Shown: positions 949 to 35,489 of the stretch, piece by piece
How positions within the stretch are numbered: the stretch's first letter is position 1
How the letters are laid out: each line of letters starts with the position of its first letter
Assembly: GCA_029204225.1 (NCBI GenBank)
Contig: CM055097.1
Location: forward strand, 1,471,414 to 1,535,413
Length of the DNA stretch: 64,000 nt
DNA from: Diphasiastrum complanatum
Lineage: Eukaryota > Streptophyta > Lycopodiopsida > Lycopodiales > Lycopodiaceae
Direction of reading: 5' to 3'
The notes under the pieces: model-generated
What the model was told of the DNA's origin: nothing
The model's database searches: none
The model's input: only the letters and a program-made list of their open reading frames with translations
Made by a program: the position numbers and the translations under genes

Positions 949-2796
949 ATGTCGATACCCTACCTTGCAAAGGCCCGTACCAAGCAGACAACCCGCCTTA
1001 CCACATTTGCCCCACCTCCTCGCCCTCCTCTACAAAGGGCAGTGGGCACTGGTAGGAGAGTAGGTCGGCCCAAAAGACCATGGTTAAGGGATATCAGGAG
1101 ACTTCAGAGGACCACGAATCTTTTGATTCTCCGTGCTCCTTTCTACAGATCTGTGAGACTGGTAACAAGGTCACTCTCACATGATGTTCGCTAGAACATA
1201 ACAGCCCTGGAAGCCCTCCATACTGCCTGTGAGGACTTCCAAGTCAAATTCTTTGAGGACTCCACGCTTTGCACAGTGCATGCAAAGAGAGTTACCCTCA
1301 TGCCTCAGGACATGCATCTTGTCATGAGGCTGAGTACATACGATCAGGTCTTTAAGAGTGGCTTCACCTCTAGGCCACCACCTACAGAGAGAGGTCCTGT
1401 TCCTCAACGAAGGAGGAGGAAGCAGACCAAGCCCACTAGGCCTGCCAAGCGAAGGCTGGTACTCAGCAAATCACCATCCCCCCCTCACATCTCTCGTGCT
1501 TTGGTTGGACCATCACACCATTCTGCAATGCCTTCTTCTCCTCCCACCACCCCTAACTATTCAAGTAGTCCCTCTTCCATTCTCTCCATTCCATCCCACA
1601 ATAACGAGGAAATGAACTCGACTGTAGATAAAATAATATCGGATCTAGATTTAAGTTTAATAGGTGATTTTTATAAGGATCTTTGTGTAAGATTTCATGT
1701 TGATCCCAAAGATTCATTTTTGGATTCTGGGAGGTATATAATTTTTGATGAGTATGTTGCCAAAGAAATTGACAAGCTAGGAGGTCAATTTTCTTTTTGT
1801 CTAAGTTCAATTAATTATATAAATCACATAAATAAAGACTTTTGTGATGCCCTGAAGGAGAAGACCTCAGATATATCAGATCCAGTTGTGGAGGCTGGTT
1901 TGATGTATTTTGTAAATAGATGTCAATGCGATGATACTAAGGACATTGGAGTTGTGTTGTCCTTTTCCGCACACAACCTTCATAGTCCAACTAAGGCGAT
2001 GAAGTATCTTCTCCATACAATCTCGGAGACCAAAGTCTTTATTATTCCATACTGCCAAAAGTAAGTGATTACATAGAATATATTCTAGTAATATTTTTAA
2101 TAGGTATTGTAATTCCTTTAGTTTAACTAATTATCTCTTGTTTGTAGTAAGCATTGGAGTGTGCATATAATCTCCCTTAGGGAAGATTCAGATGGGATCA
2201 TTAATCCCATCTGTTTAAAGATGAACTCCTTAAAGTCTACCCATGCCGAAATGGACGTGATGTACAGCAGAATGTTGCCATTTTTGCCAAGGCCAGATGG
2301 GGCCACTGTAAATAGCCACCTGAAGATTGTTGATGCAGAAGTAAGTATTTCTCATCAAGTATTTGATAGGTAATATGATCTGTTTTTTTTCAGAGTGCAC
2401 AACTAACCTATCATACGTTTTGTGATTGAAGTCAGCTTAGCAAGAGGATGGACATAGCTGTGGATGGTTCTCCATCCGCAATGTACAGAACTTTTTAGAG
2501 TGGTACATCATGCAATCCGGGGCTCCAGATATACGAAAGGTAAATAGACTAGTGAATGGCCTAACTAAGTTATTTTCGATTTGGTTTTTGATAAGTCAAT
2601 TGACCCGATTCTTTTGGATTTGCAGTATAAATGTCGAGCATTTTCAATGAATGAGATATATGAGTTTCGTCAACAAATGTTGGTGAACTTATTATCTCAT
2701 GCAACACCCAGTCCAGCTGCGGAAACAGGAGGCCAATCAAGTCCACAACTGACACTAGTGCAGAGTGGAGATAATCCATACTACTTTGAGCTATAA
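949..2796 (+). CDS. Histone H3-like / Ulp1 (C48) protease fusion, copy A, one nonsense codon
   Basis: Four exons: 949-2060, 2148-2340, 2441-2539 and 2626-2796, all with GT..AG introns and matching phases; 524 codons. Residues 9-14 are ARTKQT, the canonical H3 tail start. Residues about 44-128 form an H3-type histone fold with FEDSTLC and HAKRVTLMPQDM (alpha2-L2-alpha3). A basic, Pro/Ser-rich linker follows to about 220, then an Ulp1/C48-like domain: His373 in HW, Asn397 in MNSLK where Asp is usual, Gln436 and Cys442 in QEDGHSCGWF with the family's Q-x5-C spacing. Ulp1 enzymes remove SUMO or ubiquitin-like tags; a histone-fused form would place that activity in chromatin (inference). Codon 82 (1192-1194) is TAG where copy C has TGG. 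The ancestral ATG next to ARTKQT is AAG here, so the upstream in-frame ATG at 949 is taken as the start. It is probably a recent pseudogene, or an allele with one sequence error. Confidence 0.8.
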
Positions 2797-2988: not shown

Positions 2989-4305
2989 TTATCTGAACAA
3001 TTCCGCCCAAATCTTTGCATTTGATTTCTCTTCATGTCTTTTACGTATCTGCACAAACATACATTAATTAGATTACAGTTAGTGATCCGAATATTGACAA
3101 AAAGGATAAGGAATATAAATTAATATACAAATTCATGGATTTCACATACCAATTTTCCATCCAATATAAAGTTGAAATATTCGGAAATATCTTGCTGTAA
3201 AAGTGTCAGTTCCGTTCTAATGTAGAATAAGGTCCAGTCTTGCTCAACCTCAATAGTAGTAAGTAAATCCCTATTTGCCATGATATCAATGCCTATATGA
3301 TCAGTGTGTCCAATGCTATCTAGATCTTGATCTAATGGGGCCCAAGTACCATTGTGTTCTTTCCATCTCTGATAATGAAACACCATAGTAAGCATCTATT
3401 TTTCTATATTGTATCTAAATGATATGGATGAATGTTTGATTCTACAAGAAATATCTGCAGTGGATCTTATATCCCAACCTTTGTCCATGAATTTGAATAA
3501 AAAATCATCTGAAAGATTTTTGCAAACAAACAATGTGGGAGTTCGATGCACTTCCATGTTTGAAAAAGAGCTGACAAACAATGACATTGGAACAAACCAG
3601 TTTAAGTGCACATTTCTTGATCCTATACTAGTTTTGAGTGACTTCTGTACATCATTATATAGCTTGGAATGAAAGCATTTTATTATATTGTCGTTGACTG
3701 CAATCTACCACACGTTATTTTGAAAATTAGATAGAGGTATATACTCTAGTTTTCTTATTCCTCCATTTGTGTCTGGAATATACATAGCATCATAAAAAAA
3801 TATTCCAGAATCTGCAAGTTCTTTTGTCGTTCGTCCTCTGTATTGCAATTTGCCAATTTCTGAATGGATGACATCTATAATACTAGAAAGAAACGCCACA
3901 GGTTCCCATTCATGTATATTTGAAGGATATAGATCTGCAATACAAAATCATAATAAGCTCCAATTCATAAATACGATTACGTTTTAAAAATGACAAGCAA
4001 TCCAAAAAATTAAGATACTTACAATTACACTTTCGAAAATCATGTGGATTTACAGCCTCCACATTAAGTTCTGAATGCATATAAACATGTTGAATAAGCA
4101 CCTCTGAAATGGTTTGTCTTCCTCGAGAAACTTCGAAATCAATGATCCGCCCTTTCCAATAAGATCTATATGTATACTTGGCCTTTTTCTTCTGGCGAAA
4201 AGCCCCTCTCGTCGATGGATGCATCAGTACCTTCTCATCGCCATAGCTTGAAGAGTTCACGTTTGAACTCGTCAATATGAGAGTCCAGAGTATAGTAGGC
4301 GCCAA
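2989..4305 (-). CDS. Unrecognised multi-exon gene Q, cassette A
   Basis: This gene converges on the H3-Ulp1 gene. Exons inferred from splice sites and open frames: about 4305-4023, 3934 to about 3705, about 3649-3400, about 3395-3130 and 3048-2989 (ending IRKRHEEKSNAKIWAELFR then stop). Exon 1 contains QKKKAKYTYRSYWKG, then a stretch with TISEVLIQHVYMHSE and a Cys-rich end (RKCNC) at the donor. Exon 2 begins YLYPSNIHEWEPVAFLSS. The same exon 1/exon 2 pair recurs behind cassette B (29,360-30,182), with the same intron phase, so it is a real conserved gene. I do not recognise a domain. No convincing ATG is visible upstream of exon 1, so the start is unresolved. A function linked to the histone/protease gene is suggested only by the repeated neighbourhood. 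Confidence 0.55.
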
Positions 4306-5378: not shown

Positions 5379-6941
5379 CTACCTCAGAAGCAAAGAGGCC
5401 GAATATTCTCTAGCTTTTCCAATCAAATTTGCAATTGAATCGTCTCGGTTGTAGTTTGAAAAGCCAGGCACAACCCAGTTTAAATGATCAATCGTCTCTG
5501 AAAGGTTGACTTTGGTGCCGCAAGGAGCAGATCTGGGTGACAGTATACCGTGGTAGTGATGTACTCTGGCTATAGAGGCATTGAAGTCCTTACCACCGGT
5601 GTTTGGAATGGCTACTTTGTGAACACCAGTTAAGAACACTTTCTTCGGATTTGCCACGTATTTCCGTCGTCCTGGTGCCTCCGTGCATGTCCAGGGATCT
5701 TTGGGATGCATGCATTCTGGTTTTTTTTCAACCCAGAGCATGCGCTGTAGAGACCATTCCGAAGAGTCCGTTGGAGGATCTCGGCAATGGCCATTGGAAG
5801 CAGGTAGATTTCCAAATGTCATCCATGGCAATTCCTTGTGTTCTTCGAGGAGTCCGGGTAGTGTGTTTGGTGCGGGAACGTAAAGGAACTCATCAAAGTC
5901 TTGGTAAAAGGTCCAGGATGCCAAAAACCGTGATCGATGGAGGCAGTCATTGATAAAAAGCAGCTGGTTGTAATACCAGGCGGAGTAGACTTTCTGCCCT
6001 GGAGCATCGATGATGGTGAGAAGACCTTCTTCAATAAATGGAAGAAAGAGGCGGCGACCTTCGTCATTCAGTCCACCAACATTGTAAAAGAAAAAATGAG
6101 CCTTTCCATCCCAGAGGTGATGATGATAAACCAGCCAGTGTAGCACCCACTCGGCTCTGATGGTGGAGTGCATCGGTGGCCCACAAAAAGCATAACGAAA
6201 GGGAGGTGATGGATCTTGCAGTTTCTTCAACAGATCTCCAGCATCTCTTTTATTTTCCTTCAGCGCCAGCACTTGTTGTGTCGTCCCTCGATTAGGCCCA
6301 GTCGACACAGTAATGAACAGTTTACCTCCATCATCATCCATTCCAATGTCCTCCGAAAAGGTGCAGTTCACAATTGCAGGCACATAAATCTGTCCATTTT
6401 CATCATAATCAACGTACATCATCTCTGCATCAGTAACTTTGATAGAAACGTCGTCTTTTTCAGTAGCTTCCTGATCCAGCGTCGCTGTATCCGTGAGCCA
6501 TCTGCACTCGTGAACAGGCCGATCAAAACTACGTGAAACGACCGATGTTATGCCAACAATGAAGAACGTCCTCGCAGATCCTCTGTATGCACTAAACTGT
6601 ACAAAAGGATAGTGTGCATGGCCATGTGGGACAAGATCATACATCAAGCTATCTTGTACTCCATCAGAAGTGGGCGATTGTCCTTTTTGCAAACATTCAT
6701 TCGATGCATCACTTTTTAAATCTAGTGTGTCATTGTCGTGTCTCTGGTAAGCAATGGAATCAGTAAGCCCTGATATGACAGCAAGGTGCAAAGAGTTGGA
6801 GGCTACAGAATTCCAGAGGCCCGAGTTATTGCAGATCACCTTTGAAAACTGAAATATAAGAAAAAAGGCAGGAAATTGTAGAAACAGTCCAAGTACCAAC
6901 ACAAAAAGAATACTTCTAACTACATCCCTGGTTTTTGCCAT
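5379..6941 (-). CDS. GT92 (DUF23) galactan beta-1,4-galactosyltransferase-like protein
   Basis: Intact single-exon frame of 520 codons. Residues about 10-30 (ILFVLVLGLFLQFPAFFLIF) are one hydrophobic segment near the N-terminus, as expected for a type II Golgi membrane glycosyltransferase. The middle carries the GT92 hallmarks: FVQFSAYRGSARTFFIVG, VNCTFSEDIG, an AEWVLHWLVYHHHLW segment, YNQLLFINDCLHR and the DxD-like DFDEFLYVP, followed by KYVANPKKVFLTGVHK and RVHHYHG. The order and length match plant galactan synthases (GALS family), which extend beta-1,4-galactan side chains of pectin; the exact acceptor here is inferred. The start is the first ATG, directly before the membrane anchor. There is no sign of decay. 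It is the only conventional host gene in the window and has no operon-like neighbours. Confidence 0.85.
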   Translation of the reverse strand: MAKTRDVVRSILFVLVLGLFLQFPAFFLIFQFSKVICNNSGLWNSVASNSLHLAVISGLTDSIAYQRHDNDTLDLKSDASNECLQKGQSPTSDGVQDSLMYDLVPHGHAHYPFVQFSAYRGSARTFFIVGITSVVSRSFDRPVHECRWLTDTATLDQEATEKDDVSIKVTDAEMMYVDYDENGQIYVPAIVNCTFSEDIGMDDDGGKLFITVSTGPNRGTTQQVLALKENKRDAGDLLKKLQDPSPPFRYAFCGPPMHSTIRAEWVLHWLVYHHHLWDGKAHFFFYNVGGLNDEGRRLFLPFIEEGLLTIIDAPGQKVYSAWYYNQLLFINDCLHRSRFLASWTFYQDFDEFLYVPAPNTLPGLLEEHKELPWMTFGNLPASNGHCRDPPTDSSEWSLQRMLWVEKKPECMHPKDPWTCTEAPGRRKYVANPKKVFLTGVHKVAIPNTGGKDFNASIARVHHYHGILSPRSAPCGTKVNLSETIDHLNWVVPGFSNYNRDDSIANLIGKAREYSASLLLR

Positions 6942-7351
6942 TTTATTGGAAATTCAGCTACACTGCTAGATGGGTTTGTATCTAATCCAGACGCTTCTGA
7001 CCCAATTCAAACTACACTTTCTACTTGTAATCATGTCTTTCTGAGATGCATACAATTGGGAATGAGGTATAAGTGGAAACTTATAGTCAAGTTTTAGCTG
7101 ATCAGGATCAGGATCAGCCAATATGGAGCAAATTGAACAGCTACATTATCAAAGCACAAGCACACAAGCTGTCTGGAAATTGTATCTTATGCTCGAGGAG
7201 GTCCTCGATGGGATTCTGTGATAAGCCAGACCAAACAAGTATCATTGTTGCACATAACTGCCTCTGAATTTTCTATTTTTCTAGGGTTGTTTTTTGACGC
7301 CCTCTTGGAGAGGGGACGCCTTTCCCCGGGGGAACTGCCCGAGGCCCGAGG

Positions 7352-8070: not shown

Positions 8071-9520
8071 GTGTTATGGCTCTCTTTCAAAAAAAAAAAT
8101 TGAATTTAAAAAAAATTAGGCTGTTTCTTAAGGCTCAAGCGTATTAAGCGCATAAACCCACAAGGTTCAATAATTGACTACAAGGTTGTGAACACACAAA
8201 TTCACACCCATATTTTGGTACCTACCATTTTAAAACCTTACTTACCCCCACCTGCCTACATGACAATTTTGTCCTCTAGTAGGCGTGAATAGGCCCTGCT
8301 ACAGGCGTAGTAAGTCCCCAGCCTACCTCGCTGCAGAGCGGGCTCATAGGTACTAATGACTTGCTACACGAGGTAAAATTGGCAAAGTCTAGCAATGGAA
8401 CTGGCAAATCTAGAGTCAAAAAATATTTCACAATTTTCATTGCGAGCATATAAACCTTTTTATAAGTAAAATTTTTTAATAAAATGCAAGTTTTTGAGGA
8501 TAACTCAAAAGAGATTTCCGTGTTACATGTTAAACACCCATGACACAGTCCTTAAATTTAGGCTCAACATAGGTTCTCCCAGATTTGAAATCAGCCCCTC
8601 ACGAGCATAACCAGCAATTCAGCATAGTGGACCTTAGCTGTGCACGCTGTAATATTACGAAAAAAAATAGGTAAGTTCTGTTCTATTGAGGTCTTTTGAC
8701 CCTTTTTTGGTGCATCTGTCAGGTGCCTTGGCAGCCACGTTGAGGAGCAGATCATGGGTGGCGCCCATCGGCACCGTCTATTTCTGAATCCGACGGCTCA
8801 GACCGGGCTGTGTAACGCTCTTTGCTTCCCCCGCCCTGCGGGGCTCCTCGTCTTCTTGGCCATACTCCCCGGTATCCCGACATACTTGCTACTGGAATCT
8901 TGAATCAAAGTGTTCGTTGTACGTTTGCATGTGGGATTTCCGTTAAGCCTGGCCTGCCAACAATTGTTTTAACTTTTCTCTTCTTAGACAGCTTGCTTTG
9001 CTTGTAGATTCTATATTAGTCAATGCTGGGCTTGCTATTTGCAAGCTCCAAGTGTGCAAATTAAATGCAATGCATGTGGAGTGCCTACTTTTGCAACGTG
9101 CTAATTGAAAGGCAAAACTTGAAAGCAGTGATTGGAAAATTTCTTCTGAGTTATTTTAAAAAAAATTACATTCTTTTAAGCATTTCTGTTTTCTGAAGAC
9201 CATTACTCGTAAAAGGGTATATATTGATGTAGTTTTTGAAGACCATTGCTCAGAAAAGGGTATTATGCATATATGAAAAATCATCAAAGGTTTATGATGT
9301 TGGTTTTTGAAAAATTATGCTGATTCCATTCCTACGCTTTGCAGATTTTCCCGAGTACTCATTTAAAAGGCAACACAAGTGATGAAAATTCTTGAAGTCA
9401 AATTTCACAAGAGGCCAGATATAGTGAGGGATCATATTAAGCACTATTAGAAATTCCAAGTGAGATAAGAAATGAGTTTTACCTAGAGACCAACTTGCTT
9501 AAGTCCATAAAGAATTTTTT

Positions 9521-10220
9521 TCAAAGGGGCCGCATACGACCGCAACAGGACCACATATGACCATACGACCGCAAAGGAGGGGAGGGCCGAAGGGAGGGGC
9601 CACAAAGGACCACAAACGACCTCCTTGCGGTAGTTTGGGACTGCATAAGACCGCATACGAATGGAGGGCTAAAGGGAGGGGCCGCATAGGGCCGCAAAAG
9701 GACCGCATAGGACTGCCAACGACCGCATAAGACTTTAATGGACCGTAATGGACGTCCATAAATGACCGTAATGGACCGCAAACAACCATAATAGACTGCA
9801 GACGATCGCAAATGACCTCCTTTGCGGTCGTTTGGGACCGCATACGACCGCAAAGGAGGGGAGGGCCAAAGGGAGGGGCCACATAGGACTGCATAGGACT
9901 GCAAACGATCGCATAGGATGACAAACGCCCGTAATGGACCGCAAAAGACCGCATAGGACGCAAATGACCGTAATGGACCGCATAGGATCGCAAAACGGCC
10001 GCAAAATGACCGCAAAAGGCTGTCACCATAATAGACCGTAATGGGCCGCATAGGACCGCAAAAGGAATGCATATGATCGCAAACGACCTCCTTTGCGGTC
10101 ATTTAAAACCGCATATGACCACATACGAATGGACAGCTGAAGGGAGGGTCGAAGGGAGGGGCCACATAGGACCACAAATGATAGCAAACGATCGCATAGG
10201 ATAGCAAAAGGAGGTTATCA
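9521..10220. repeat. GACCGCA-type degenerate minisatellite
   Basis: About 700 bp built from short, shuffled units such as GGACCGCATAGGACCGCAAA, mostly 10-20 bp apart, with the TGCGGTC complement also present around CCTCCTTTGCGGTCGTTTG. Longer blocks beginning GACCTCC.TTGCGGT recur at about 9,609, 9,814 and 10,084, so a higher-order unit of roughly 200-270 bp is likely. It is CpG-rich against an AT-rich background. Long open frames on the minus strand (up to 193 codons) are a by-product of stop-poor repeats. No gene is called here. Confidence 0.85.
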
Positions 10221-10338
10221 AAATAGAAGGATCTGTGCATTCAAGTAAACATATTCTGATTTTTGTAAGTTTTTCAATGAAATTTGGATTTAATTTTAGC
10301 TATGGTGATATTCAGTTAACTATCTTTTTTTTTTGCAG

Positions 10339-12114
10339 ATCTGCATTAGTAGCTCCTCGGAATATTAAAGACAATGTTTCACTAGGAATGTCATTGGGCA
10401 CAATATTGACTTGCAAATCCACCGAGCGTATCATGATGAACAATAGGATTTCAAATGTAAAGTGTAAAATAGCAGAGTCTTTGATGGTGGACATTCAAAA
10501 ATTTTTAGATAAGACTATAGTTCAGGGTGCTTGTGATTTTGCGGGTATTAGCAGGGAAGCATATGCAACAATATTTAAACTATTTAGAGAAGCTTTTAAG
10601 CAAGTTCAAATTAGAAAAGTTCCAATCCCTAGGACATATCACTTGAAGAAAGAGAGGGATACATTAAACATAGGTATGCATAAAATCACTGGAACTCCAT
10701 TTCATATCGAGGAGGTGTATGAACTGATGGAAGATTGATATTCTATAATTCATCAAACAATCTATTTGTTGATCTAAATTACTTACTGAGATACATCATC
10801 ACATTCTATGATATAACCTATGAAAAGGTGAATGGCAAAATAATCATAGTACTTAAGTTAGATGAGTCAGAAATTGTGAAAGGACAGAAGATGGAGAGAG
10901 TTAGTATAACTCTCATGAATGGTGCTCTATCACAAACAGAGAACCAAGAAGATTTCAGATTCAGTGTCCAGTCAGAAAATGATATATGGTGGTTTGCAGC
11001 ATTTCAAGTAACTAGCCTCATTGTTACATTACATTCATTGAATAGTATTAATACATTGTAAATTAAGTCTGATTAATTTTTTTGGACAGGTGCTAAAAGA
11101 GGATCATGATATATTATCATGGATATTCTCAAGGACATCTTATCCTAGGATCATCAAGGACCATATGGATGGAGGACTTCTCAATGTTCCAGGAGTTGGA
11201 GACTTCAATGTTGAATGGCACTTAGCAGGGGATTTGAAACATTAAAATGTATGTATAATGTCTCTCACGGTGCTACATCAAAACACCCTTGTTTGTACTG
11301 TATGAAAATGGCAAAAGATGTAACTAGGAGCACAGGAATTACTAAAGAATATGCAGATCCAAACTGGAAGCCTGTGCTGCCTATCCTCTTAAAAAATGTG
11401 CATGTTTGCACTCTTCATGCAGAAGTTAGATTAATAGAAAAGATCATTTATCTTCATATAGTTTTTGCTTGGAATACTAAGCCAGCATCATTAGCAAAGG
11501 AAGCTATCTCTCGATTAGAAGATGTTTTATCAAAAGCAGGACTCCATAAAGGACATGTCAAAATTCAAAAAGATGAAAAGCTTTCAGGAAAGAATGGGAA
11601 CATGCCAACTAAGCCAAGCATAGGAGGAGCAAAAGCACGTGGTTTCCTATCAAATCATACTGGTAGGGCTTCTAATATTCAACACTCAGTCTGGACAGAT
11701 ATTATTGCTGCTACTCAGGACTTCGAGAAAGATGGCAAAACCAGAGTACTAAAAGCTGATGTATGGAAAAAGCTTGATAGTATGATTGCTATTTTAAGAA
11801 AAGAAAAATACTTTGATATTGATAAGAAAGCTGTCCAAAGGGCTTGTGTCAAAAACATGGGGAGATGATTACATCACTCATTACATGGTTAGTATTAAAC
11901 TCTTAAAATGCTTTCAAATTTAAATATATATTTAGATCCAAACATAAGACTAACATTATGATTTTGACATATGCAGCACATACTAAGAGATCATACAACA
12001 TTTTTTGCAAATACATATGGAAGCTTGAGTGTATGGTTCACAAGGGATGGAGAAGTCACACTGGCAAGCACGAGCAGCATTTCATTGAAATACACAACAT
12101 GGAGGAACCAATGA
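10339..12114 (+). pseudogene. Frameshifted multi-exon gene with transposon-like GDLK/CLYC core
   Basis: An acceptor at 10,338 opens a frame running to about 10,735. A one-base shift continues it to a donor at about 11,008; the next exon starts after the acceptor at about 11,090. A second one-base shift near 11,228 joins WHLAGDLK to TLKCMYNVSHGATSKHPC, followed by CLYC. The last exon (from about 11,978) reads HILRDHTTFFANTYGSLSVW and ends at 12,114. The order GDLK, CxxC, a distant HxxxR-type helix, then W..YitHYM-HILRDH resembles a widespread, often repetitive family of uncharacterised eukaryotic proteins seen near transposons; I cannot name it precisely. The first exon is missing and may have been lost to the adjacent minisatellite. 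It converges on the partner gene of cassette B. The two frameshifts argue for a pseudogene. Confidence 0.5.
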
Positions 12115-12378
12115 AAAACGAAACTACATTTGTCAATTGTTTCAGTGGTTCTACCGTAGAGTTCAAATTCGACATATAACAAAGTCCGCACAATACAACA
12201 AGTTTAGAAAAGCATGCAAGTTCATACAGGAAGAGAAAATTAGATGATTGTTGAGTACAAGATCATCATTATCAAATCATGACATGTTCAGAATTGCTTT
12301 GCAAATTCATTGAACAAGAAAGGAGAAATACTCAATGTAAATGTATTGATTGTATTATACCAAAATACAAAGTGTCAA

Positions 12379-13348
12379 CTATTCATCATCAGATCTTGTG
12401 TCAGATTCTATGGCAGTATTGTCATGAAGAAATTCCTTGCTAGTGTATGCATCTAATAGATGTGCATTATCCTTATTTCCACTAAGCTCAATATAAGTGG
12501 AATACAATGAATAATGGGAGCTCCTTAAAGGAACATTCCCATCAGTAAAGCCTAAAATGTTCAAAACATAAGATCTTTTGACAAAAATGATCTTATTTGT
12601 CTTTACAAATTTATGTCCTCCTAGGTAAAATGATAAAGCTTTAACTGTCATTATAAGAGTCTCCCCAACTAGGCTCAACTTGGAATAAGCAATACAGATT
12701 TCATTCTTCAGGAAATGCCTAAGATAGTGGCCAAGTCCACTATCCCTCTGGAAAGACGATGTGTGTTGTTTGAAACCACCTCGTCTCGCAGCAAAATCAT
12801 CTATTATGAGAGCATCCTGCAATAGGAAATCTGTTAGCAAAAACACATTTAGTGATTAGAAATATCATAATGCAAGGAAGTTTAAACACTTACACATTCT
12901 TCATCATCAGTAGCAACCAGATCAAGATGATCAATATAATGACCACGTACTGAACTAGAATCATCCGTGAAATGCAATAATGATGGACGAGGGAAGCCCA
13001 TCAGAGATTGAAATGTCGTGAATTCTTCATCGGATGGTCTGCCTCGCCCATATTTGATAAAATCTTAGTCAAGCATTCTTCAGCAGTCATAATTCCCTCC
13101 TCGTCATCAAAATCAATACTAGCAACAAGATCATCTGTTTCAAAATCTACGAAGTCAGAGAATTTGAAAATCGTGTCGGATAATAGACATAGAACCTCGT
13201 CTTCACGATAGTCAAAAAATTTACATAAATCAGCAATAGTAAAATATACATTGTCATTAATATAATATACAGGCAAATTGAATAGACATTTGGAATCCTC
13301 TGTAGGGTTGGATTCATCAGCAGATGTATTTTGGCCAATAAAAGAATC
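12379..13348 (-). pseudogene. Partner gene of cassette B, 3' half (split by copia insertion)
   Basis: This is the continuation of the minus-strand gene that starts at 26,507. Coding resumes right at the retrotransposon target site (GAATC at 13,344-13,348) with FIGQNTSADESNPTEDSK, runs through an acidic region, then after a one-base frame change has YGRGRPSDEE (AT-hook-like GRGRP) and MGFPRPSLLHFTDDSSS up to a donor at 12,893. After a short intron the last exon (12,816-12,379) reads DALIIDDFAARRGGF and ends NTAIESDTRSDDE then stop. No catalytic domain is recognised in this half. It lacks the methyltransferase motifs seen in the cassette C partner, so either the two differ or this one diverged strongly. 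It is dead because a 12.6-kb nest of elements interrupts it. Confidence 0.5.
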
Positions 13349-14086
13349 TGTTAAATTTCACAGGTGTGGATTGTCCACTACATGTACTTGTGATCTCCTA
13401 AGGTGTGTAGATGCACCAAGATCAAGACTAGATTGAGATTCAAGATCTATCTTTGATTCTATGGCAAAAACACACTACTACATGCATTCAATCACTTCCA
13501 ACTCTCACTCACACATGTGGGAAGTATTCAAAAAATAATCTAAGAAAAAACAAGCTGCTCTACTCGGGTAGAGAGAGAAAAAACATCATGAGCTCTCGGG
13601 TAGAGAGAGAAAGCTAGAAATCCAATAACTCACAAAATCTATAAAATCACCAAATCAATTAGCTTAAAAAATGAGGAGTACAATGATACTAGTAGATCCA
13701 CGAGCTACCACTATGCTTAACTATGATTGGACCATACTTTGTCACTTCTTGATCCTATTGGACCATTGATCTATGCACCTCTTAGGTCTATTGGACTATA
13801 TTCAAGCACACCTCAATTTCCTATTGGACCTCACAAGGTTCCACCTCTAAATCCTATTGGACCTCTTGGAATTCATCAAACAAAAGCTTTACACTTGTCT
13901 ACACTCTAATTGGCACGTGTTTAGCCTCTTACTCTATTTTGGCTCAATAGTGACATTACAAGTGGAAATGCATAATTTGCCATCTATGCCAAATTTATTC
14001 CTATCAACATCCTACACCTAGATGCTTGATGTGAAAAACATAAGACCCCTATATGTAACATAGATAATCTTTTTCAATTCTTCACA
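13349..14086 (-). repeat. 3' LTR of outer copia element
   Basis: 738 bp, TGTTAAATTTCACA..TTCTTCACA as read on the plus strand. It differs from the partner LTR (25,244-25,978) by scattered substitutions and small indels, so insertion is not recent. It contains several spaced copies of CCTATTGGACC. Confidence 0.92.
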
Positions 14087-14104
14087 CTCCTCCTAAAAAA
14101 TTAT

Positions 14105-16785
14105 CTATGAAGATTTGAGCATTGATCTTGATATAACTCCAAGATTAGATCTATGCTTGATGAAAGCACTTTTGCTCAAAGGCTTGGTGAGTAGATCGGC
14201 AATACAAGAGGACGAGTTGACATGCTCCAAATAGATTTCTCCTCCAATAAGCTTTTCTCTCACAAAGTGGTGTGCCACTTCTATGTGCTTGCTTCTTGTA
14301 TGAAATATGGAATTATTGGCAAGAGCTTGGGCCGAGATGTTATCACACTTGATCATTGGTAGATCATCCTGCTTGATGCACTTTAGCTCCATTAATAACC
14401 TCAAGCTCTTGATCCAAAGCACTTCTTTGGTTGTTGTAGTGAGTGCTTTGTACTCGGCCTCACATGAAGAGAGAGATATAGTATCTTGCTTTTTGGAAAG
14501 CCAAGATATTAGATTGCCTCCAAGAAAGATAGTGTATGCACTAATAGACTTTTGATTCATCTTGTCACTTGCAAAGTACGAATCCGAGTAGCCAATAATG
14601 GATAGATCTTCACTTTTATAGAGTAGACCATAATCACAAGATGAAGATACATATCTTAGAATCCTCTTGGCCATCTTCCAATGATGGATCTTAGGATCTT
14701 GCATAAATTGACTCAATTTGTGCACACAAAAACTTAGATCGGGCCTAGTAATGGTAAGCCAAATCAAGGAGCCTACAAGACTCCTAAAAAGTGTGATGTC
14801 CTCAAAGGATCTTTCATCACCTTTATTAGGACCTCTTACAATTTGCTCCATTGGAGTATCTATGCTCTTATAATTTTCCATATGGAATTTTTTCAACATA
14901 GAGTGAGCATATCTAGATTGGCATATAAAGACATGATTTTCATAAAAATCAATTTCTAGGCCTAGGATGTAATGCATCTCTCCTAGATCTTGCATTTTAA
15001 ACTCACATCCAAGTGCTAGCTTGGTTTCATCAACTAGCTTGATACAACTTCCACAAAGAATAGTGTCATCAACATAAATTAGAAGAATGACAATATTGCT
15101 ATCAACAAACTTTAGATACATGGAAGGATCATAGTAACTAAGAGTAAATCCTAGTGAGATAAGAAAAGAATTAAGTCTTGAATACCATGATCTTGGTGCT
15201 TGCTTGATTCCATAAAGACTTTTGAAGAGCAAGCACACTTTGGACTCATCCTTGATGAATCCTTGAGGTTGTTCCATATAGATCTCCTCCTCAAGATAAC
15301 CATTTAGAAAAGCATTGGATACATCTAATTGGAACACCTTCCACTTGAAAAAACAAGCAAGATAAATAAGAATTCTTATTGTCACCATCTTTGCAACGGG
15401 TGCAAAGGTCTCCTCATAATCAAGACCATGGATTTGAGCAAATCCTTTGGCACATAATCTTGCTTTATGCTTGTTGATGGTGCCATCATGATTGAACTTG
15501 ATCCGAAATACCCACTTGCAACCAATCACATGCTTGTTGGATGGAGGATCCACAAGCTCCCAAGTATTGTTGGTGATCAATGCATAATACTCTTGCTACA
15601 TGGCATCATACCACTCCTTGGTATTGAGTGCCTCTTGTACATTCTTTGGCTCTTCATGAGAGACTTAAAAAACATAATTAGTGGAATCAAGATCCACTTG
15701 TTTGCCTTTGTCAACATATGAGAGCCTCTTGGGCTCGGATCTATCTCTCATGGATCTTCTTGGTGAAAAAATCCGAGGAGAGTCTTCTTCAAATCTCGAC
15801 CCCATCACATCATGATTGTCTTCAAAATCAATAATTGATGATGCATCCATAGATTTCTTGATCTCGGCCTCTTCAAAAGATGAGTGTTGATCTTCATGGA
15901 AGACAACATCTCTACTTTCAATAACTTGAGAAGTAGAGAGACACTATAGGCCTTCTTGGTGGATGAGTATCCAACCATGATCCCTTTACATGCACTAGGA
16001 TCTTCCTTCTTCCTTGTTTCCAAGGGAATATGGACAAGGCATAAGCATCCAAAAACTCTAAGGTGATCAACCTTAGGCTTCTTCAAAAATAAGATTTCAT
16101 ATGGTGACTTTCCTCCAAGAGCTATATGTGGGAGCCTATTGCAAAGATAATTTTCACAATTAATGGCTTCTCCCCAAAAATCTTTGGGCAAAGATGCCTC
16201 AATTCTCATAGATTTTGCACATTCACATAGAGATCTATTCTTTCTCTCAGCCACTCCATTTTGAGATGGAGAGTAGGCACAAGAGAACTCTCTTTTAATG
16301 CCTTCAAGCTCACAAAAATCTTGAAATTTATTGGAGATATATTCACCACCTCTATCACTTCTAAGAGCTTTAATCTTGAATGAGAATTGCTTCTCTACAT
16401 AAGCTTTGAAAATAAGGAAATGATCAAACACCATAGATTTAGAAGCAAGAAGATATATCCAAGTGAATCTTGTGTAATCATCAATGAAAGTAACAAAACA
16501 AGTGGCTCCTGCCTTACTTGTAGTTGATGAGAAATGCACATCCGAGTGGATTAACTCCAAAGGATGCTTGCTTTTGATAGAAGATCTTGTAAATGACTTT
16601 TTGTGAGATTTAGCAATAGCACAAGCCTCACAAGGCTTGATCTTCTTGGAGAGTGACTTTGGCAAGCCAATAGCTTTGGCTTCTTTGATCATAGAGAGCA
16701 TGGATTTGTAGTTGGGATGTCCCAACCTCCTATGACATAATTCCTCCATAGAGAGCTTGTTCACAAGAGCAACATTACAAGCATA
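14105..16785 (-). pseudogene. Outer copia: integrase, reverse transcriptase, RNase H
   Basis: Read on the minus strand. The integrase zinc region (CHRRLGHPNYKSM, CEACAIAKSHKKSF) and integrase core (IHSDVHFSS, FIDDYTRFTW, LRSDRGGEYIS, QNGVAERKNRSLCE) come first. The RT follows with CKWVFRIKFNHDGTINKHKA, QLDVSNAFLNGYLEEEIYM and LLIYVDDTILCG, then copia RNase H (GYSDSYFASD, SLSSCEAEYKAL, HTRSKHIEVAHHFV). The two main frames (16,785-15,805 and 15,580-14,105) are separated by a stop and a frameshift in the hinge region. The N-terminal half lies beyond the nested element (23,217-24,488). Non-functional by these breaks. Confidence 0.9.
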
Positions 16786-17440
16786 TGTGAAAATCGTCAA
16801 CATTTCCTAGCTAGTTTGAGACCTAAATTGGCTAAAATTGTAAATAGTTTTGGTTCTGGAGTTTTGCACGTGTGAACCAGGCCACAATGTTTTTATTTAC
16901 TGTATTTTTTCAGTATGATGAAGTGTCAAACTTCATACCCTTCAAAATGAGACCATTTTGATGTATTTTGGTCATATAAGCCATTTTTAGCTATTTTTCC
17001 TATATAGGGAATATCTAGGGTCAAGTACCTTCTAGAGAGAGGAGAGAGAGTCATCTTCCTCATCCATAAATAGTAGGGAAGTCGTGGAGAACAGGTTGGA
17101 GAAACCTTTTGTATGCTTCATTGAGATCAATAGATCATTGTCATTGTTTCTTCCTCCATTGAGAGCATTGTTGTGTGTATTGTCTTCAAGCTATTGTGTA
17201 TGATCTTAGGTGCTTTCCAAAAGTGGTAGGCTGATGTATTATGGACTGTATAATGCTATTTTGGGCCGCACTTGATGTTTATGGAAGTTTCCATTTGTGA
17301 TAAATGCTTTTTGATCAAGTTCTTTGCATTCTAGGTAGCATAGAATGTGTTGCCAATTCCTAGCTTATGTAGTTTGGAGTGCAAGCATTCAAGCCAATGA
17401 TCTTGGAGTTTAGATCCACTTAGGATCTGTATTTTTCACA
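16786..17440 (+). repeat. 5' LTR of inner copia element
   Basis: 655 bp, TGTGAAAATCGTC..TATTTTTCACA. Contains CCATAAATAG (TATA-like) near 17,065 and a GCACGTGTG G-box-like site near 16,866. Confidence 0.95.
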
Positions 17441-17456
17441 TGGTATCAGAGCTGGT
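17441..17456 (+). other. Primer binding site of inner copia
   Basis: TGGTATCAGAGCTGG directly abuts the 5' LTR; it is the usual plant copia site complementary to the 3' end of initiator Met tRNA. Confidence 0.9.
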
Positions 17457-18612
17457 TGGCTTCTATTTACAGTAAGTATTCCATTTTTGGTGATATTTGG
17501 ATGTTTGATCAAGTTTTGGCATGATTTTGCATTGCTTTGTTGATCAAATCTTACTAACCTTTGTTTTGTGAGTTGAACTTGTGGATCAAAAGCATATTTC
17601 AGGTCTATTGAAGATCAGAGGCTGAAAAGAAACTATTTTGGATCAGATCATAACACCTAATCATTTGTGATTGTGAGGCTTGTGCATATTCAATACTAAC
17701 AATGTTCTTTTCAATCCTATTGTTGACAATCTCCATTCTTGGATGAACACTCTCCTTAAGTGGATGAAACTTCTCCTTAAGTGGATGACAAATGCTCTTT
17801 TAAGTGAGTTGTAATTCTCCTAAAGGCTGAGCAAAGCTCCCATTTGGATGAAAGATCCCCTTTTTTGGGTGAACATATTGTAAGCTCCATTGTGAAGAGC
17901 ATATTGTAAAGATTGTCATCAATTTTGGCATAAATTTTGGTGTACTTTGTTGAGCATGTAAGTAACTCTCCTTATGTAATTTGATTGGAGCATTTGCTGG
18001 AAGGTGTTAACCATTATGCAAGTGTGTTTTCAGGTTCTTAACAGGTTGAGGAACATTCTCATGTGAAGTGATCTTAGATCTACATCTAAACACCAAGATT
18101 TGACAAGATAGTGAAGCTAGTCTTGTGATTCACTAAGTGTGCTCATTCATTCACCTCTAAATCTTGTATTTATCACTTGCTGGAGTTTATAAACTTTTAG
18201 AAGTGTGGTTTACATGTGGTTTTACAGGTTGAATCAATATCTTAGTGTGTTGATCATATGTTGATCAAGTTTGTTCATTACTAGGTAATCTTGGCATCCT
18301 AGTTTTGGGTATTTTCTAAGAATGCAAGTAACTCTTCACACCATAACTTGATTTGGTCACTTGCTGGAAAGTTTGAGAGCTTAAGCAAGAGTGTGTTCAG
18401 GTTGGTTTGATTTTGTAATCCATTCTTAGTGTGTGCAAAGTGTTGCATGTGTTTCAATCTTCCTTTCTATGCTTGGAAACCATCTAGGTTCAAGATAGAA
18501 GTGTTTTAGGGTCCTAAATCTTCATAGATCTCTTTATCTATCATTTGTTGAGAGAAAAGTGAGTGCTAAGTGCTTTAGGACAGAACCTAAAAGTTGAAGA
18601 AACATTAGAATC
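17457..18612 (+). other. Untranslated leader of inner copia with degenerate repeats
   Basis: About 1.16 kb before the gag start. It contains three diverged blocks, near 17,957-18,045, 18,140-18,235 and 18,325-18,410. Each has a CACTTGCTGG or ATTTGCTGG core followed about 50 bases later by a TTTTCAGGTT- or TTACAGGTTG-like, splice-acceptor-like string. TCTCCTTAAGTGGATGA also occurs twice in a row near 17,752-17,790. No coding sequence was seen. Confidence 0.6.
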
Positions 18613-21600
18613 ATGGCTTCCAATGGTGGGATCATGCTAGAGTCTAGTGAAAGGTTGAGTTCATCAAACTACTCTACTTGGAAAGTGAGGATGGAGTCCT
18701 TACTTGAGTTGAATGAACTCATGGACATAGTTGCAGAAATTGAAGAGAGACCTCTCACACTTCAAGAGCAACAAAGGTTTGATAAGAAGGCCAAAAGGTC
18801 TCTTCATATCATTAAAATGAATGTTACAAATGAACTTCTCAAGGAAGTTGGAAAGTGTCAAAGTGCAAGTGAGGCATGGAATGCCTTAAAGAAGCTCTTT
18901 GAATCAAAGTCCACATCTAGGGTATTGACCCTAAGGAGACAAATATTTTCTAGTAGGCAAAGAGAGGGTGAAAGTGCTCATGCATTTATCTTGAGAGTTA
19001 AGTCCCTAAGTGATGATTTAGCATGCATTGATGAGAACATAAAAGATGGTGAAATAGTCCAAGTTATGTTGAATGGTTTGCTAAATGAACATGCTAACCT
19101 TGTGCAAAGTTTTGCCATTCAAAGAGTCTTGCCAAGTGTGGTTGACTTGCAAGAAATCTTATTGGCTGAAGAACATAGGTTGCAATCAAAGCTTGATGGT
19201 GCATCCTTGCAAGGTGGAGGTGAAGAGGCTTTCTTCACAAAAGGCAAATTCAAGGGCAAAGGTAAAGGCAAAGGGAAATGGTCCAAAGGTGGTAACTTTG
19301 ATCATGATGATCACTCTTCCTCTTCCTCTTCTACTAAGAACAATAAGTCAAAGTTCAAGTGCTTTTATTGTGGGATAAAAGGTCATTTTGCAAATGAATG
19401 TTATAAGAAGAAAAGAGAGCAAGGAGAGAGGCAAGGAAATCTTACAATAGATGAGGAAGAACATAACACATGTGAATCACTTGTTATGACTTCAAGTTTG
19501 TTAGCCAACATAGATGATAATGATCCTTGGTGGATTGATAGTGGAGCCTCATCTCACATGACAAGACATAAGGAATACTTTACATCCTTAAAGTCTTATG
19601 AGGGAGAAGGTAACATCATCTACACTGCAAATGATGGTCAATGTGACATCAAAGGCATAGGCACTATTCCTATTTCCCTTTCAACAAATAGGAAAGCAAA
19701 TCTTGAAAATGTTTTGTACATTCCTTCAATCACTAAGAATTTGCTTAGTGTAAGTCAAATGATTGACAAAGGACTTGATGTGGAGTTCATTGGAGATGCA
19801 TGTTTGATAAGTAAATGTGGATCCTTGATTGCTCAAGGTAGGAGGCATGGTAAACTTTTCAAGCTTGATGCATGTGTGATCTCTAATCATGAAGGATGTA
19901 TGGCTAGGGAGCAATTGACAAACCAAGAAGTTTGGCACAAGAGGTTGGGCCATCCCAACTTCAAATCTTTGGAGGTAATGGCAAAGAAAGAGCTTGTTCT
20001 TGGTCTCCCTAAAAGTCTTGTTGCAAACAATAGTGTTTGTGAACATTGTGCCTTGTCCAAATCTCATAGACTTGCTTATTCTAGATCTACTTCTAGATCT
20101 AAAGAAGCTTTTCAACTTGTGCATTCTGATATTCATTCTTCTAGTACAACTAGCAATGGTGGGGCAAAGATGTATGCAACTTTCATTGATGACTTTAGTA
20201 GGTATACTTGGATCTATCTTCTTAAAAGTAAGGATGAAGTGTTTGCTGCATTTGTCAAGTTCAAGAATGAAATGGAAAACCAATTCAATACAAAGATCAA
20301 ATGCTTAAGATCTGATAATGGAGGGGAATACACCTCAAATAGGTTCAAAGACTTTTGTATAGCACATGGGATTAAGAGGGAGATGTCTAGTCCTAGGACT
20401 CCACAACAGAATGGAGTGGCCGAGAGGAAGAATAGAACCCTTTGTGAATGTGCCAAGGCAATGAGACTACATGCTAATCTTGCTAAGTCTTTTTGGGGGG
20501 AAGCTTTAGCATGTGCTAACTATCTATGTAATAGATGGACAAGTGCTTCCTTGGATGGTAAAACTCCTCATGAGGTTCTTTATGGTAGAAGGCCGAGTGT
20601 CAAGCATTGTAGGATCTTTGGATGTACATGTTTTGTCAATATCACACTTGATGATAGAACTAAAGAAGATCCTTCATCAAAGAAGGGTGTGTTTGTTGGC
20701 TATAGTGAAGTAAGCAAGGCTTACAAAGTGTACATTCCTTCTACAAAGAAAGTTGTCATAAGTAGGGATGTCATCTTTCATGAAGAGAATGTTTCCAATG
20801 TTGTTGATGTTGATGTTGATGTGCCTACTAATCATCATGATGTGCAAGATGTCTTGGATGAAGATGGAGATGCCACTCCAAAGCAAACTTCAAGGAAGAC
20901 TCAAAGGCAAAGGGCTAAGCCATCAAGGCTAACCTATGATGAAAAAGGAAAGCAAGTGGTGGACAACTCTAACTTTGCTTTTCTTACCTCTTTTGATGAA
21001 CCAACTTGTGTAGGTGAAGCAATTCAAAAGAAGGAATGGATCCAAGCCATGGATCATGAGCATCAAGCACTCATCAAAAGCAACACATGGAGGTTGGTAA
21101 AGCTTCCAAAGGACAAGAAGGCAATTGGTTGTAAGTGGATCTTCAAGATCAAGACAAATCAAGATGGATCAATCAACAAGTACAAGGCAAGGTTGGTGGC
21201 AAAGGGGTATGCTCAAGAATATGGTATTGACTATGATGAGACCTTTGCACCCGTGGCAAAGATGGTAACTATTCGAATCCTAATCTCTCTTGCAACTCTT
21301 TATGATTGGGATATGTGGCAAATGGATGTTACTAATGCCTTCTTGAATGGTGATCTTGAAGAAGATATTTACATGGAGCAACCCGAGGGCTATGTTTCAC
21401 ATGATGAGCCTAATCATGTGTGCTATCTCCAAAAGAGTTTGTATGGGCTAAAGCAAGCACCAAGGAGTTGGTATGCTAAGCTCAATTCCTTCTTACTTTC
21501 TCAAAACTTTGTTATGAGTGAGTATGATCATTCTCTCTACTTTAGATTGAATGAAAATGATATCACTTTACTTTTGATCTATGTTGATGACATTATCTTA

Positions 21601-22566
21601 AGTGGTGGTAACAATCTAGATATAGATGAAATCAAGATGGCACTCAAAAGAGAGTTTGAAATTCAAGATCTTGGTAAACTTCATTATATCTTAGGAATAG
21701 AGATTATTAGAACTTCTAAATCTACATTCATATGTCAAGAAAAGTATGTTAACTCTATTCTAAAAAGGTTTCATATGGAAGATTGTAAAGTTGTTTCTAC
21801 TCCTATGGAATCAAATGTAAAGCTAACTACAAGAAGTAATGAAAGATCCTTCAAGGACATTACTCTCTATAGAAAGCTAATAGGATCTCTTATATGGTTA
21901 ACCATCACAAGACCTGATCTAAGCTTTGTGGTTGGTAAACTAAGTCAATTTATGCAAGATCCTAGTGAGGCTCATTGGAAGCTAGGAAAGAGAGTACTTA
22001 GATACATCTCGGGATCTAGAGATTTTGGCATCTTGTATGGAGGTACTACACCTAACCTTTGTGGATTTTCAGATTCAGATTTTGCAGGTGATCAAATGGA
22101 TAGGAAGTCAACAAGTGCCTTTGCAATCTATCTTGGAGATGGAGTGGTCTCATGGCTATCAAAGAAGCAACCAACTATCTCTCTATCTTCCACCGAAGCC
22201 GAGTACAAGGCATTAACAACATGCACCAAGGAGATTCTTTGGATCAAGAGGATGTTATTGGATCTTCACTTGATGGAACCAGAGAAGACTCCAATCATAC
22301 TTTGTGATAACCTTTCAGCCCAAAGCTTGGCAAGCAATCCTGTTTTTCATGCAAGGAGCAAGCACATTGAGATTGCTCACCATTTTGTGAGAGATCAAGT
22401 CATTGCCAAAGAGGTGGAGCTTCAACATGTCTCTTCAAAGGAGTGTGTGGCTGATATCTTCACCAAACCATTGGGAAAGGACCTATATTTAATGCATAGA
22501 TCTAATCTTGGAATGTGCTCAAAGACTATGTTGAAACTAGCATCCAATGTTGAAGAGGGAGTGTGA
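18613..22566 (+). CDS. Copia gag-pol polyprotein, intact (1,317 aa)
   Basis: A single frame encodes the whole retrotransposon polyprotein. Gag (UBN2-type) spans residues 1 to about 210, followed by a Lys/Gly-rich stretch and a CCHC zinc knuckle (FKCFYCGIKGHFANEC) near 255. The aspartic protease site is DSGASSHM near 308. The integrase zinc-binding region (WHKRLGHPNFKSL..CEHCALSKSH) is followed by the integrase core with HSDIHSSST, IDDFSRYTW and RSDNGGEYTS. The RT has KYKARLVAKGYAQEYG, QMDVTNAFLNGDLEEDIYM and the catalytic YVDDIILS. Copia RNase H has FSDSDFAGD, STEAEYKAL and the HFVRDQ region. The start follows a stop-rich leader and matches the MxxxxG..LESSERL..NY start of related copia gag. 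The stop TGA (22,564-22,566) lies inside the 3' LTR, so the frame runs through the purine tract into the LTR. Confidence 0.96.
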   Translation: MASNGGIMLESSERLSSSNYSTWKVRMESLLELNELMDIVAEIEERPLTLQEQQRFDKKAKRSLHIIKMNVTNELLKEVGKCQSASEAWNALKKLFESKSTSRVLTLRRQIFSSRQREGESAHAFILRVKSLSDDLACIDENIKDGEIVQVMLNGLLNEHANLVQSFAIQRVLPSVVDLQEILLAEEHRLQSKLDGASLQGGGEEAFFTKGKFKGKGKGKGKWSKGGNFDHDDHSSSSSSTKNNKSKFKCFYCGIKGHFANECYKKKREQGERQGNLTIDEEEHNTCESLVMTSSLLANIDDNDPWWIDSGASSHMTRHKEYFTSLKSYEGEGNIIYTANDGQCDIKGIGTIPISLSTNRKANLENVLYIPSITKNLLSVSQMIDKGLDVEFIGDACLISKCGSLIAQGRRHGKLFKLDACVISNHEGCMAREQLTNQEVWHKRLGHPNFKSLEVMAKKELVLGLPKSLVANNSVCEHCALSKSHRLAYSRSTSRSKEAFQLVHSDIHSSSTTSNGGAKMYATFIDDFSRYTWIYLLKSKDEVFAAFVKFKNEMENQFNTKIKCLRSDNGGEYTSNRFKDFCIAHGIKREMSSPRTPQQNGVAERKNRTLCECAKAMRLHANLAKSFWGEALACANYLCNRWTSASLDGKTPHEVLYGRRPSVKHCRIFGCTCFVNITLDDRTKEDPSSKKGVFVGYSEVSKAYKVYIPSTKKVVISRDVIFHEENVSNVVDVDVDVPTNHHDVQDVLDEDGDATPKQTSRKTQRQRAKPSRLTYDEKGKQVVDNSNFAFLTSFDEPTCVGEAIQKKEWIQAMDHEHQALIKSNTWRLVKLPKDKKAIGCKWIFKIKTNQDGSINKYKARLVAKGYAQEYGIDYDETFAPVAKMVTIRILISLATLYDWDMWQMDVTNAFLNGDLEEDIYMEQPEGYVSHDEPNHVCYLQKSLYGLKQAPRSWYAKLNSFLLSQNFVMSEYDHSLYFRLNENDITLLLIYVDDIILSGGNNLDIDEIKMALKREFEIQDLGKLHYILGIEIIRTSKSTFICQEKYVNSILKRFHMEDCKVVSTPMESNVKLTTRSNERSFKDITLYRKLIGSLIWLTITRPDLSFVVGKLSQFMQDPSEAHWKLGKRVLRYISGSRDFGILYGGTTPNLCGFSDSDFAGDQMDRKSTSAFAIYLGDGVVSWLSKKQPTISLSSTEAEYKALTTCTKEILWIKRMLLDLHLMEPEKTPIILCDNLSAQSLASNPVFHARSKHIEIAHHFVRDQVIAKEVELQHVSSKECVADIFTKPLGKDLYLMHRSNLGMCSKTMLKLASNVEEGV

Positions 22567-23216
22567 AAATCGTCAACATTTCCTAGCTAGTTTGAGACCT
22601 AAATTGGCTAAAATTGTAAATAGTTTTGGTTCTGGAGTTTTGCACGTGTGAACCAGGCCACAATGTTTTTATTTACTGTATTTTTTCAGTATGATGAAGT
22701 GTCAAACTTCATACCCTTCAAAATGAGACCATTTTGATGTATTTTGGTCATATAAGCCATTTTTAGCTATTTTTCCTATATAGGGAATATCTAGGGTCAA
22801 GTACCTTCTAGAGAGAGGAGAGAGAGTCATCTTCCTCATCCATAAATAGTAGGGAAGTCGTGGAGAACAGGTTGGAGAAACCTTTTGTATGCTTCATTGA
22901 GATCAATAGATCATTGTCATTGTTTCTTCCTCCATTGAGAGCATTGTTGTGTGTATTGTCTTCAAGCTATTGTGTATGATCTTAGGTGCTTTCCAAAAGT
23001 GGTAGGCTGATGTATTATGGACTGTATAATGCTATTTTGGGCCGCACTTGATGTTTATGGAAGTTTCCATTTGTGATAAATGCTTTTTGATCAAGTTCTT
23101 TGCATTCTAGGTAGCATAGAATGTGTTGCCAATTCCTAGCTTATGTAGTTTGGAGTGCAAGCATTCAAGCCAATGATCTTGGAGTTTAGATCCACTTAGG
23201 ATCTGTATTTTTCACA
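22562..23216 (+). repeat. 3' LTR of inner copia element
   Basis: 655 bp, apparently the same sequence as the 5' LTR. Its first bases TGTGA supply the gag-pol stop codon. Confidence 0.95.
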
Positions 23217-24488: not shown

Positions 24489-25230
24489 TTGAAGTGAAGA
24501 AAACTCAAATGATGAACAATAAATGTTGCTACACACTCTCAATAGGATCCAATAATAGAGTACTATCTCTTCCTATGAAAGATCTTGCAACTATTTGTGA
24601 ATTGATTCTCACTAGCTACACAAATCTCTCTAAAACAAGATCTAATTCACATCAAATGATGGAGTACAGGCAAAGTTAGGATCAAACACTCTCAGCACTT
24701 GTGAAGTACTCTAAGAAAACAAATTTGACTCAAATACAATGATATTGCATGAAACAAAATGGCTAAGATCTCAAAATAGTGCCTAGATCACATATAGATG
24801 AGATTGGCAAGCATACAACTATGATTTTGGATCAACCAAGCAATCTCTTGACCAAACCAAATGTGTCCACCCAGGTCTAGGTGCCCTACCTAACCCTCTT
24901 CAAAAGCTTATAGCTTCTGATTGCTCAACCAAATGGAATGAAACTGATTGCATCAGAAACTAGACAAAAATAGCTTCAAAACAAGCTATCAAGCAAGATA
25001 AATGGATCAAGCATGAGAGAGAACATCCAAACTGAAATTGGATGTTCCTCACACATGTCTGAGCACCTGATTCCGTATAGTACCAGGTCAGACCCAATCA
25101 ATGTCCTTTTGATCTCTTTTGATCCAAGATTGAACAAGATAGCTAGGAAAATGGGCCTTGACAACTTCTAGCTCAAGATTGATGAAAATTTTTCACTTAG
25201 ATGGATCAAAATGCATGGTAACCTCAGGTA

Positions 25231-25243
25231 GGCTCTGATACCA
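25231..25243 (-). other. Primer binding site of outer copia
   Basis: On the minus strand TGGTATCAGAGCC abuts the 5' LTR, complementary to initiator Met tRNA. Confidence 0.9.
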
Positions 25244-25978: not shown

Positions 25979-25983
25979 GAATC

Positions 25984-27342: not shown

Positions 27343-29164
<1,822 letters not shown>

Positions 29165-35478: not shown

Positions 35479-35489
35479 GTAAGATAATT

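Follow-up and report, generated by a model that had tools for sequence, protein, structure and literature searches.

A predicted protein that joins a histone H3 part to a C48-type cysteine protease part is most probably encoded by a transposon, a reading to which we assign a probability of roughly 0.93. Its sequence marks the element as a DNA transposon, bounded by terminal inverted repeats and carrying four predicted genes, referred to here as T, A, the H3–C48 fusion and C. The copy at 949-2796 on the forward strand of the window, i.e. the whole 64-kb stretch of DNA analysed here, is a dead copy of the transposon gene as judged from its reading frame and surroundings. Capture of H3 in fungi and capture of Ulp1 in plants are known; a fusion of the two was not encountered in the literature searched, which consisted mostly of openly readable papers, and the first-pass annotation likewise knew of none.

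Copies of the fusion in the window and in the genome

The window contains three copies of the fusion on the forward strand, each from a different family, and all three are broken. Copy 1 (family 1; 949-2796) has exons at 949-2060, 2148-2340, 2441-2539 (or from 2432) and 2626-2796. The first-pass annotation had read this copy as one spliced frame that joins an ARTKQT tail and an H3 fold to a C48 protease with readable His373, Asn397, Gln436 and Cys442. The domains and the four residues are indeed present; however, the frame contains a TAG at 1192-1194, inside the histone fold, and the residue numbering takes this stop codon as residue 82. Moreover, copy 1 has no start codon before ARTKQT, where its relatives have one directly, and a second in-frame TAG lies at 2438-2440 if exon 3 is given the start point used in copy 2 and in the relatives. 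The part of copy 1 before the stop (949-1191) matched PF00125 with an E-value of 2.1e-5 (25.2 bits, slightly below the cut-off of 26.4), the part after the stop with an E-value of 7.3e-12 (46.1 bits, well over the cut-off), and the C48 part, which is in the same frame as the H3 part, matched PF02902 with an E-value of 2.0e-4 (21.7 bits; cut-off 20.7). The three proposed introns of copy 1 (2061-2147, 2341-2440 and 2540-2625) all have GT and AG ends in the sequence.

In copy 2 (family 2; 27343-29164), the H3 part is open and matched PF00125 with an E-value of 1.4e-28. It is followed by a (TA)59 tract at 27993-28110, after which the frame changes. The C48 exons of copy 2 (28533-28710, 28823-28926 and 29027-29164) are recognisable, with a PF02902 E-value of 6.2e-7 that is stronger than the C48 match of copy 1, and the layout is the one that had been proposed to be shared by the two copies. 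Copy 3 (family 3; 34443-35479), which the first-pass annotation did not list, has a frameshift in the tail and stops in the linker; its H3 part matched PF00125 with an E-value of 2.5e-22, catalytic C48 exons were not found, and LTR-type coding sequence comes next. Between the three window copies, the proportion of synonymous differences (pS) was 0.73-0.87, i.e. near saturation, while the proportion of nonsynonymous differences (pN) was 0.21-0.47 and not saturated. The copies therefore diverged while they were working genes and were broken later.

Elsewhere in the genome, we analysed 20 family-2 loci taken from 150 matches; this sample is not random because the loci were picked mainly for open frames. 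All four exons were mapped in 13 of the 20 loci, and seven loci were not assembled. Two of the 13 mapped loci, L012 and L019, keep an open frame as far as the normal end (479 aa), a third, L011, is open and has no stop at the usual place, and ten are interrupted. L019 has lost the catalytic Cys. In L012, three GT..AG introns with canonical splice sites give one uninterrupted 479-aa frame, in which both domains score over their cut-offs (PF00125, E=3.1e-24; PF02902, E=1.3e-7). From families 1 and 3, 11 loci were retrieved, and assembly was attempted on six of these. Within family 3, L042 is open over 512 aa (PF00125, E=1.1e-15), although its histone fold is short of a few residues and His-Gln takes the place of the His-Trp seen in the others, and L040 reads through 466 aa (PF00125, E=1.7e-17) with one splice acceptor that is not AG. 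Pfam detected only the histone and no C48 domain in these two loci; their C48 part aligns with the family-1 C48 part by sequence similarity. The family-1 locus L045 has 482 codons followed by a frame shift and is thus open to near its end, and its first 463 residues match both PF00125 (E=8.8e-21) and PF02902 (E=2.4e-5) over the cut-offs. Finally, L044 is interrupted, and the tail of L043 is in another frame.

Taken together, these observations show that open genomic copies encode the fusion as a single predicted protein. They also bear out the earlier suggestion that it is more than a chance gene model: the histone match of copy 2 is strong, pN is far lower than pS, and one uninterrupted 479-aa genomic copy has both domains.

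Genes, ends and dispersal of the element

Self-comparison of the window revealed modules in which gene A lies before copies 2 and 3 in divergent orientation (24% identity) and gene C lies after copies 1 and 2 in convergent orientation (60% identity). The first codons of gene A also precede copy 1, at 1-137 on the reverse strand, from where the gene continues beyond the window. Family-1 gene C lies at 3477-4230 on the reverse strand, with matched stretches at 4021-4230 and 3477-3935 and in-frame stops further on. The family-2 element is split. Its left part (10205-13348), which is cut by an LTR retrotransposon, holds gene T (10723-11887, forward strand) and the downstream part of gene A (12382-13282, reverse strand); the first part of gene A (25979-26507, reverse strand), fusion copy 2, gene C (29733-29972, reverse strand; first part matched and most of the remainder missing) and the right terminal inverted repeat (30476-30510) follow on the other side. 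The gene order of the family-2 element is T, A, fusion, C, with T and the fusion pointing to the right and A and C to the left. Because similarity to other copies begins at 10205, we place the left terminal repeat of the family-2 element outside the window. Family-3 gene A (33084-33566, reverse strand) is cut at 33084.

Several other features lie next to or within these modules. A GC-rich degenerate tandem repeat at 9499-10204 lies directly to the left of the family-2 element and hides its left end. The LTR retrotransposon at 13349-25978, which is inserted in family-2 gene A, has LTRs that are 96.5% identical, has GAATC on both sides and contains another Copia-type element. Between modules 1 and 2, there is an uninterrupted GT92 glycosyltransferase gene (5379-6953, reverse strand; PF01697, E=2e-19).

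In two full family-2 copies, the similarity is bounded precisely by CATTAGAGGAGTTCTCAATATC on the left and by the inverse of this sequence on the right. These copies are approximately 9.0 and 8.0 kb long, the second having a deletion, and both have terminal inverted repeats of 35 bp. Moreover, additional copies share the family-2 right end but differ in the sequence that flanks it. A target-site duplication was seen neither in the two full copies nor in a 382-bp insert in gene T of L016. This insert, at approximately -2760 to -2378 from the start of the fusion, has ends like those of the element and is likely a short non-autonomous relative.

In a family-3 copy on contig C12, the arrangement of family 2 is found again, with T, A and the fusion followed by part of C. 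The T genes of families 2 and 3 share 66 and 54% identity over two stretches, compared with 41 and 34% for A. T is therefore the best conserved gene between these families and, for this reason, the candidate transposase. T was pieced together from open frames and is possibly incomplete; family-2 T had no match in Pfam, NCBIfam or PDB, and no hAT domain was matched by Pfam in T. Similarly, the T, A and C sequences scanned with Pfam had no match to a MULE transposase, DUF1985 or DUF287, and Pfam scans recognised no DNA-binding domain in A or C. Gene C was considered as a TnsA-like nuclease; this candidate was rejected, as the match (E=0.0048) is under the cut-off and another family-2 copy gives no match.

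An N6/N4 DNA methyltransferase exon (PF01555, E=3.3e-11) at 32035-32685 on the reverse strand is part of a separate dispersed repeat, which borders on the family-3 element at 33084. In the genome, all 150 places scored matched this repeat, mostly with 62-81% identity, among 2331 candidates. The PF01555 exon (32035-32382) at first resembled a part of gene A in module 3. This reading was rejected, as the family-3 copy continues A in the manner of family 2 and without this domain, its similarity to the window ends at 33084, and the methyltransferase belongs to the other repeat.

In the 1.745-Gb genome from which the window comes, H3 queries from copies 2, 3 and 1 returned 7404, 6670 and 5319 first-look candidates, respectively, and for each query 150 of 150 scored places matched and were dispersed over many contigs. 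We claim no copy number because the lists may overlap, with at least 150 matches per query. Three diverged families have the same layout. The fusion in the window belongs to a multicopy element with terminal inverted repeats and is not a gene of the host at this position.

Among known systems, hAT elements of fungi have taken up H3 by itself and multiplied it, with 784 H3-like copies in one genome (PMC6710886); there, too, an H3-like sequence is present in many copies by means of a DNA transposon with terminal inverted repeats. By contrast, the H3 in the fungal elements stands alone and was inactivated by RIP in most of those genomes (PMC6710886), whereas here H3 is fused to C48, the C48 part has introns, there is purifying selection and no hAT domain was seen.

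Selection on the histone and protease parts

We calculated dN/dS (NG86) for the 20 family-2 loci over 189 pairs, leaving out the L014-L015 pair and excluding stops and shifted codons; the sample includes the close relatives L014, L015 and L019. Ratios were 0.42 for the tail, 0.20 for the H3 fold, 0.78 for the linker, 0.51 for the N-terminal part of C48, 0.33 for the C48 core and 0.55 for the C terminus. These values show that purifying selection has acted on the predicted histone fold and on the protease core.

The H3 part matched the PF00125 profile over the cut-off in copy 2, copy 3, L012, L042, L040 and L045. In common with histone H3 and CENH3, it has this fold, an ARTKQTAR-like N-terminal tail and conserved interface residues; it differs from them in that the fold is 40-50% identical, position 9 has no lysine and a protease follows at the C terminus. 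K4 is present in 18 of 20 family-2 tails and in all nine tails read from families 1 and 3 (two of the 11 loci had no tail match), i.e. in 27 of 29 tails. At position 9, none of the 29 tails has a lysine; this residue is Asp or Asn in family 2 (20/20) and Leu in the others (9/9). Positions corresponding to H113, R116 and D123 of the H3-H3' interface are kept in 20, 20 and 19 of 20 loci, respectively, so that action of the fusion inside a nucleosome, as the first-pass annotation proposed, is possible.

Loop 1 of families 1 and 3 is long and CENH3-like with Arg-Trp (Trp-Trp in L045), and that of family 2 is H3-like. Among PDB chains, the best match of the family-3 H3 part is Schizosaccharomyces pombe CENP-A and that of family 2 is H3. 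As for kinship with H3 versus CENH3, identity to reference sequences is equal and so are the counts of H3-type and CENH3-type residues. A search of the genome with a CENH3 fold returned 13 stop-free H3-like open reading frames at 60% identity, followed by the elements described here; no clear host CENH3 was seen in this search. Further H3-like matches, with 50-53% identity to the CENH3 fold, were located at 53.5-54.5 Mb on C7 and at 31.0-31.9 Mb on C15; some of these are in open frames of 412-416 aa and may represent further families of the element.

The C48 part matched PF02902 over the cut-off in families 1 and 2, and, as in peptidase family C48 (Ulp1/SENP), His, Gln and Cys occur in the usual order with Q-x5-C spacing. 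These three residues are all present in L012, which has Asn at the acid position. The acid of the triad in C48 peptidases is usually Asp; here it is Asn in both families for which there is an alignment. Among the family-2 loci, His is present in 18 of 20, Asn in 17 of the 17 scored, Gln in 15 of 16 and Cys in 10 of 17, so that Cys, unlike in the peptidase family, is lost in 7 of 17. With phmmer, the C48 part of copy 1 had no PDB match up to an E-value of 10. Both the Asn at the acid position and the many loci that lack Cys call for caution about the predicted protease activity.

Motif arrays and possible functions of the fusion protein

Divergent intergenic regions of 0.8-0.9 kb separate gene A from the fusion in family 1 (138-948), family 2 (26508-27342) and family 3 (33567-34442), and all three contain arrays of CACGTG and of a TATCG motif. 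These intervals hold 20 of the 28 CACGTG sites in the window, for which approximately eight are expected in total from base composition. The TATCG motif occurs in both orientations with a spacing of 79-91 bp, and its form differs between families; its orientation alternates at this spacing in the three regions, and transcripts could fold into hairpins. Because the patterns were derived from the window copies, the other copies serve to test them. The family-2 form was detected in 19 of 20 family-2 copies (3-9 each) and in none of the 11 family-1 and family-3 copies, while the family-1/3 form was detected in all 11 of the latter (3-7 each) and in none of the 20 family-2 copies; near-identical copies contribute to these counts and are not independent. 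The exception, L022, lacks the homologous upstream DNA. CACGTG was present in 18 of 20 family-2 copies and in 10 of 11 family-1 and family-3 copies. In 20 coding stretches of family 2, neither form of the TATCG motif nor CACGTG was found. The arrays might be ordinary promoter elements.

Family-specific motif arrays are also known from the VANDAL elements of Arabidopsis, in which VANC proteins, which bind these non-coding arrays, cause methylation to be lost there (PMC5735166 and PMC10398659). Plant MULEs have captured Ulp1, and a subset of the VANC genes (KIU, Kaonashi) includes an Ulp1 domain, whose role in plant transposons is given as unknown (PMC13317346). VANDAL/KIU elements resemble the element described here in having an Ulp1-type domain, several encoded proteins, family-specific motif arrays and a better-conserved candidate transposase; however, they are MULEs without terminal inverted repeats, and in KIU the Ulp1-type domain is joined to VANC and not to H3. 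We do not file the present element as a VANDAL, since it ends in inverted repeats and none of its scanned proteins matches a MULE, DUF1985 or DUF287 domain.

We tentatively favour the idea that the fusion is a self-targeted anti-silencing chromatin protein, and would put this mechanism as a whole at somewhat short of even odds. The H3 part would enter, or dock on, the element's nucleosomes, to which it might be recruited by A or C when these bind the family motif. The tail of the fusion mostly keeps K4 and has no lysine at position 9, so that the K9 silencing mark could not be placed on it. The tethered C48 domain would free silencing proteins at the element of SUMO or a related modifier, and this action would keep the promoters of the transposon open. 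We consider it doubtful that the proposal extends to its strongest form, in which the element would build its own modified nucleosome, with a K9-less H3 variant that carries a SUMO-type protease, is placed by the motifs and strips silencing marks.

The most serious alternative, in itself unlikely, is that the fusion is an accessory to transposition. The H3 part would anchor the transposition complex on chromatin in general or on a given chromatin state, and C48 would act through SUMO on the transposase or on host repair; thus, the fusion would serve integration and not anti-silencing. In both families in which T was sought, it accompanies the fusion, and the CENP-A match of family 3 together with the CENH3-like loop 1 of families 1 and 3 would suit such a targeting function. 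However, copies, as judged by eye, lie across many contigs and are not confined to a single site on each, family 2 has H3 as its best match and a loop 1 of the H3 kind, and the family-specific arrays are left unexplained. The alternative that we rank next, also unlikely, is that the H3 part is an anchor for docking in the nucleus or on nucleosomes, or pairs with H4 without nucleosomes, so that a protease for ubiquitin-like modifiers would act on host proteins generally. The histone fold being under the strongest selection and the basic linker being conserved support this possibility, which, however, explains neither the family-specific arrays nor the lost K9.

It is improbable that host H3 and Ulp1 pieces were captured as passengers, joined by chance and are useless to the transposon. 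Transposons do capture H3 and Ulp1 (PMC6710886 and PMC13317346), and the window copies are broken; against this, both domains are under purifying selection within family 2 and between families, and the layout occurs in three diverged families. Similarly improbable is a self-cleaving histone, suggested in the first-pass annotation, in which C48 would release the H3 part: its sole support is the fusion itself, and the linker is the least constrained part of the protein. Giant viruses can carry histone and protease genes, and a remnant of an endogenous giant virus was therefore considered; this origin is very improbable given the introns and the small size of the element with its terminal repeats, and four single-sequence queries in viral_contigs, a search that reaches close relatives only, found no viral relatives. 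Least probable of all is an ordinary, non-mobile host gene family, with which the introns and purifying selection would agree, as opposed to the very many dispersed copies that are bounded by terminal repeats and have different flanks.

If the element does build such a modified nucleosome of its own, then selfish DNA would encode a catalytically armed histone. The fusion has been kept by selection on both of its parts, and this suggests an answer to the question of what Ulp1 domains do in plant transposons, namely docking on or incorporation into chromatin together with removal of SUMO at the element. The H3 part suggests how the protease might reach chromatin.
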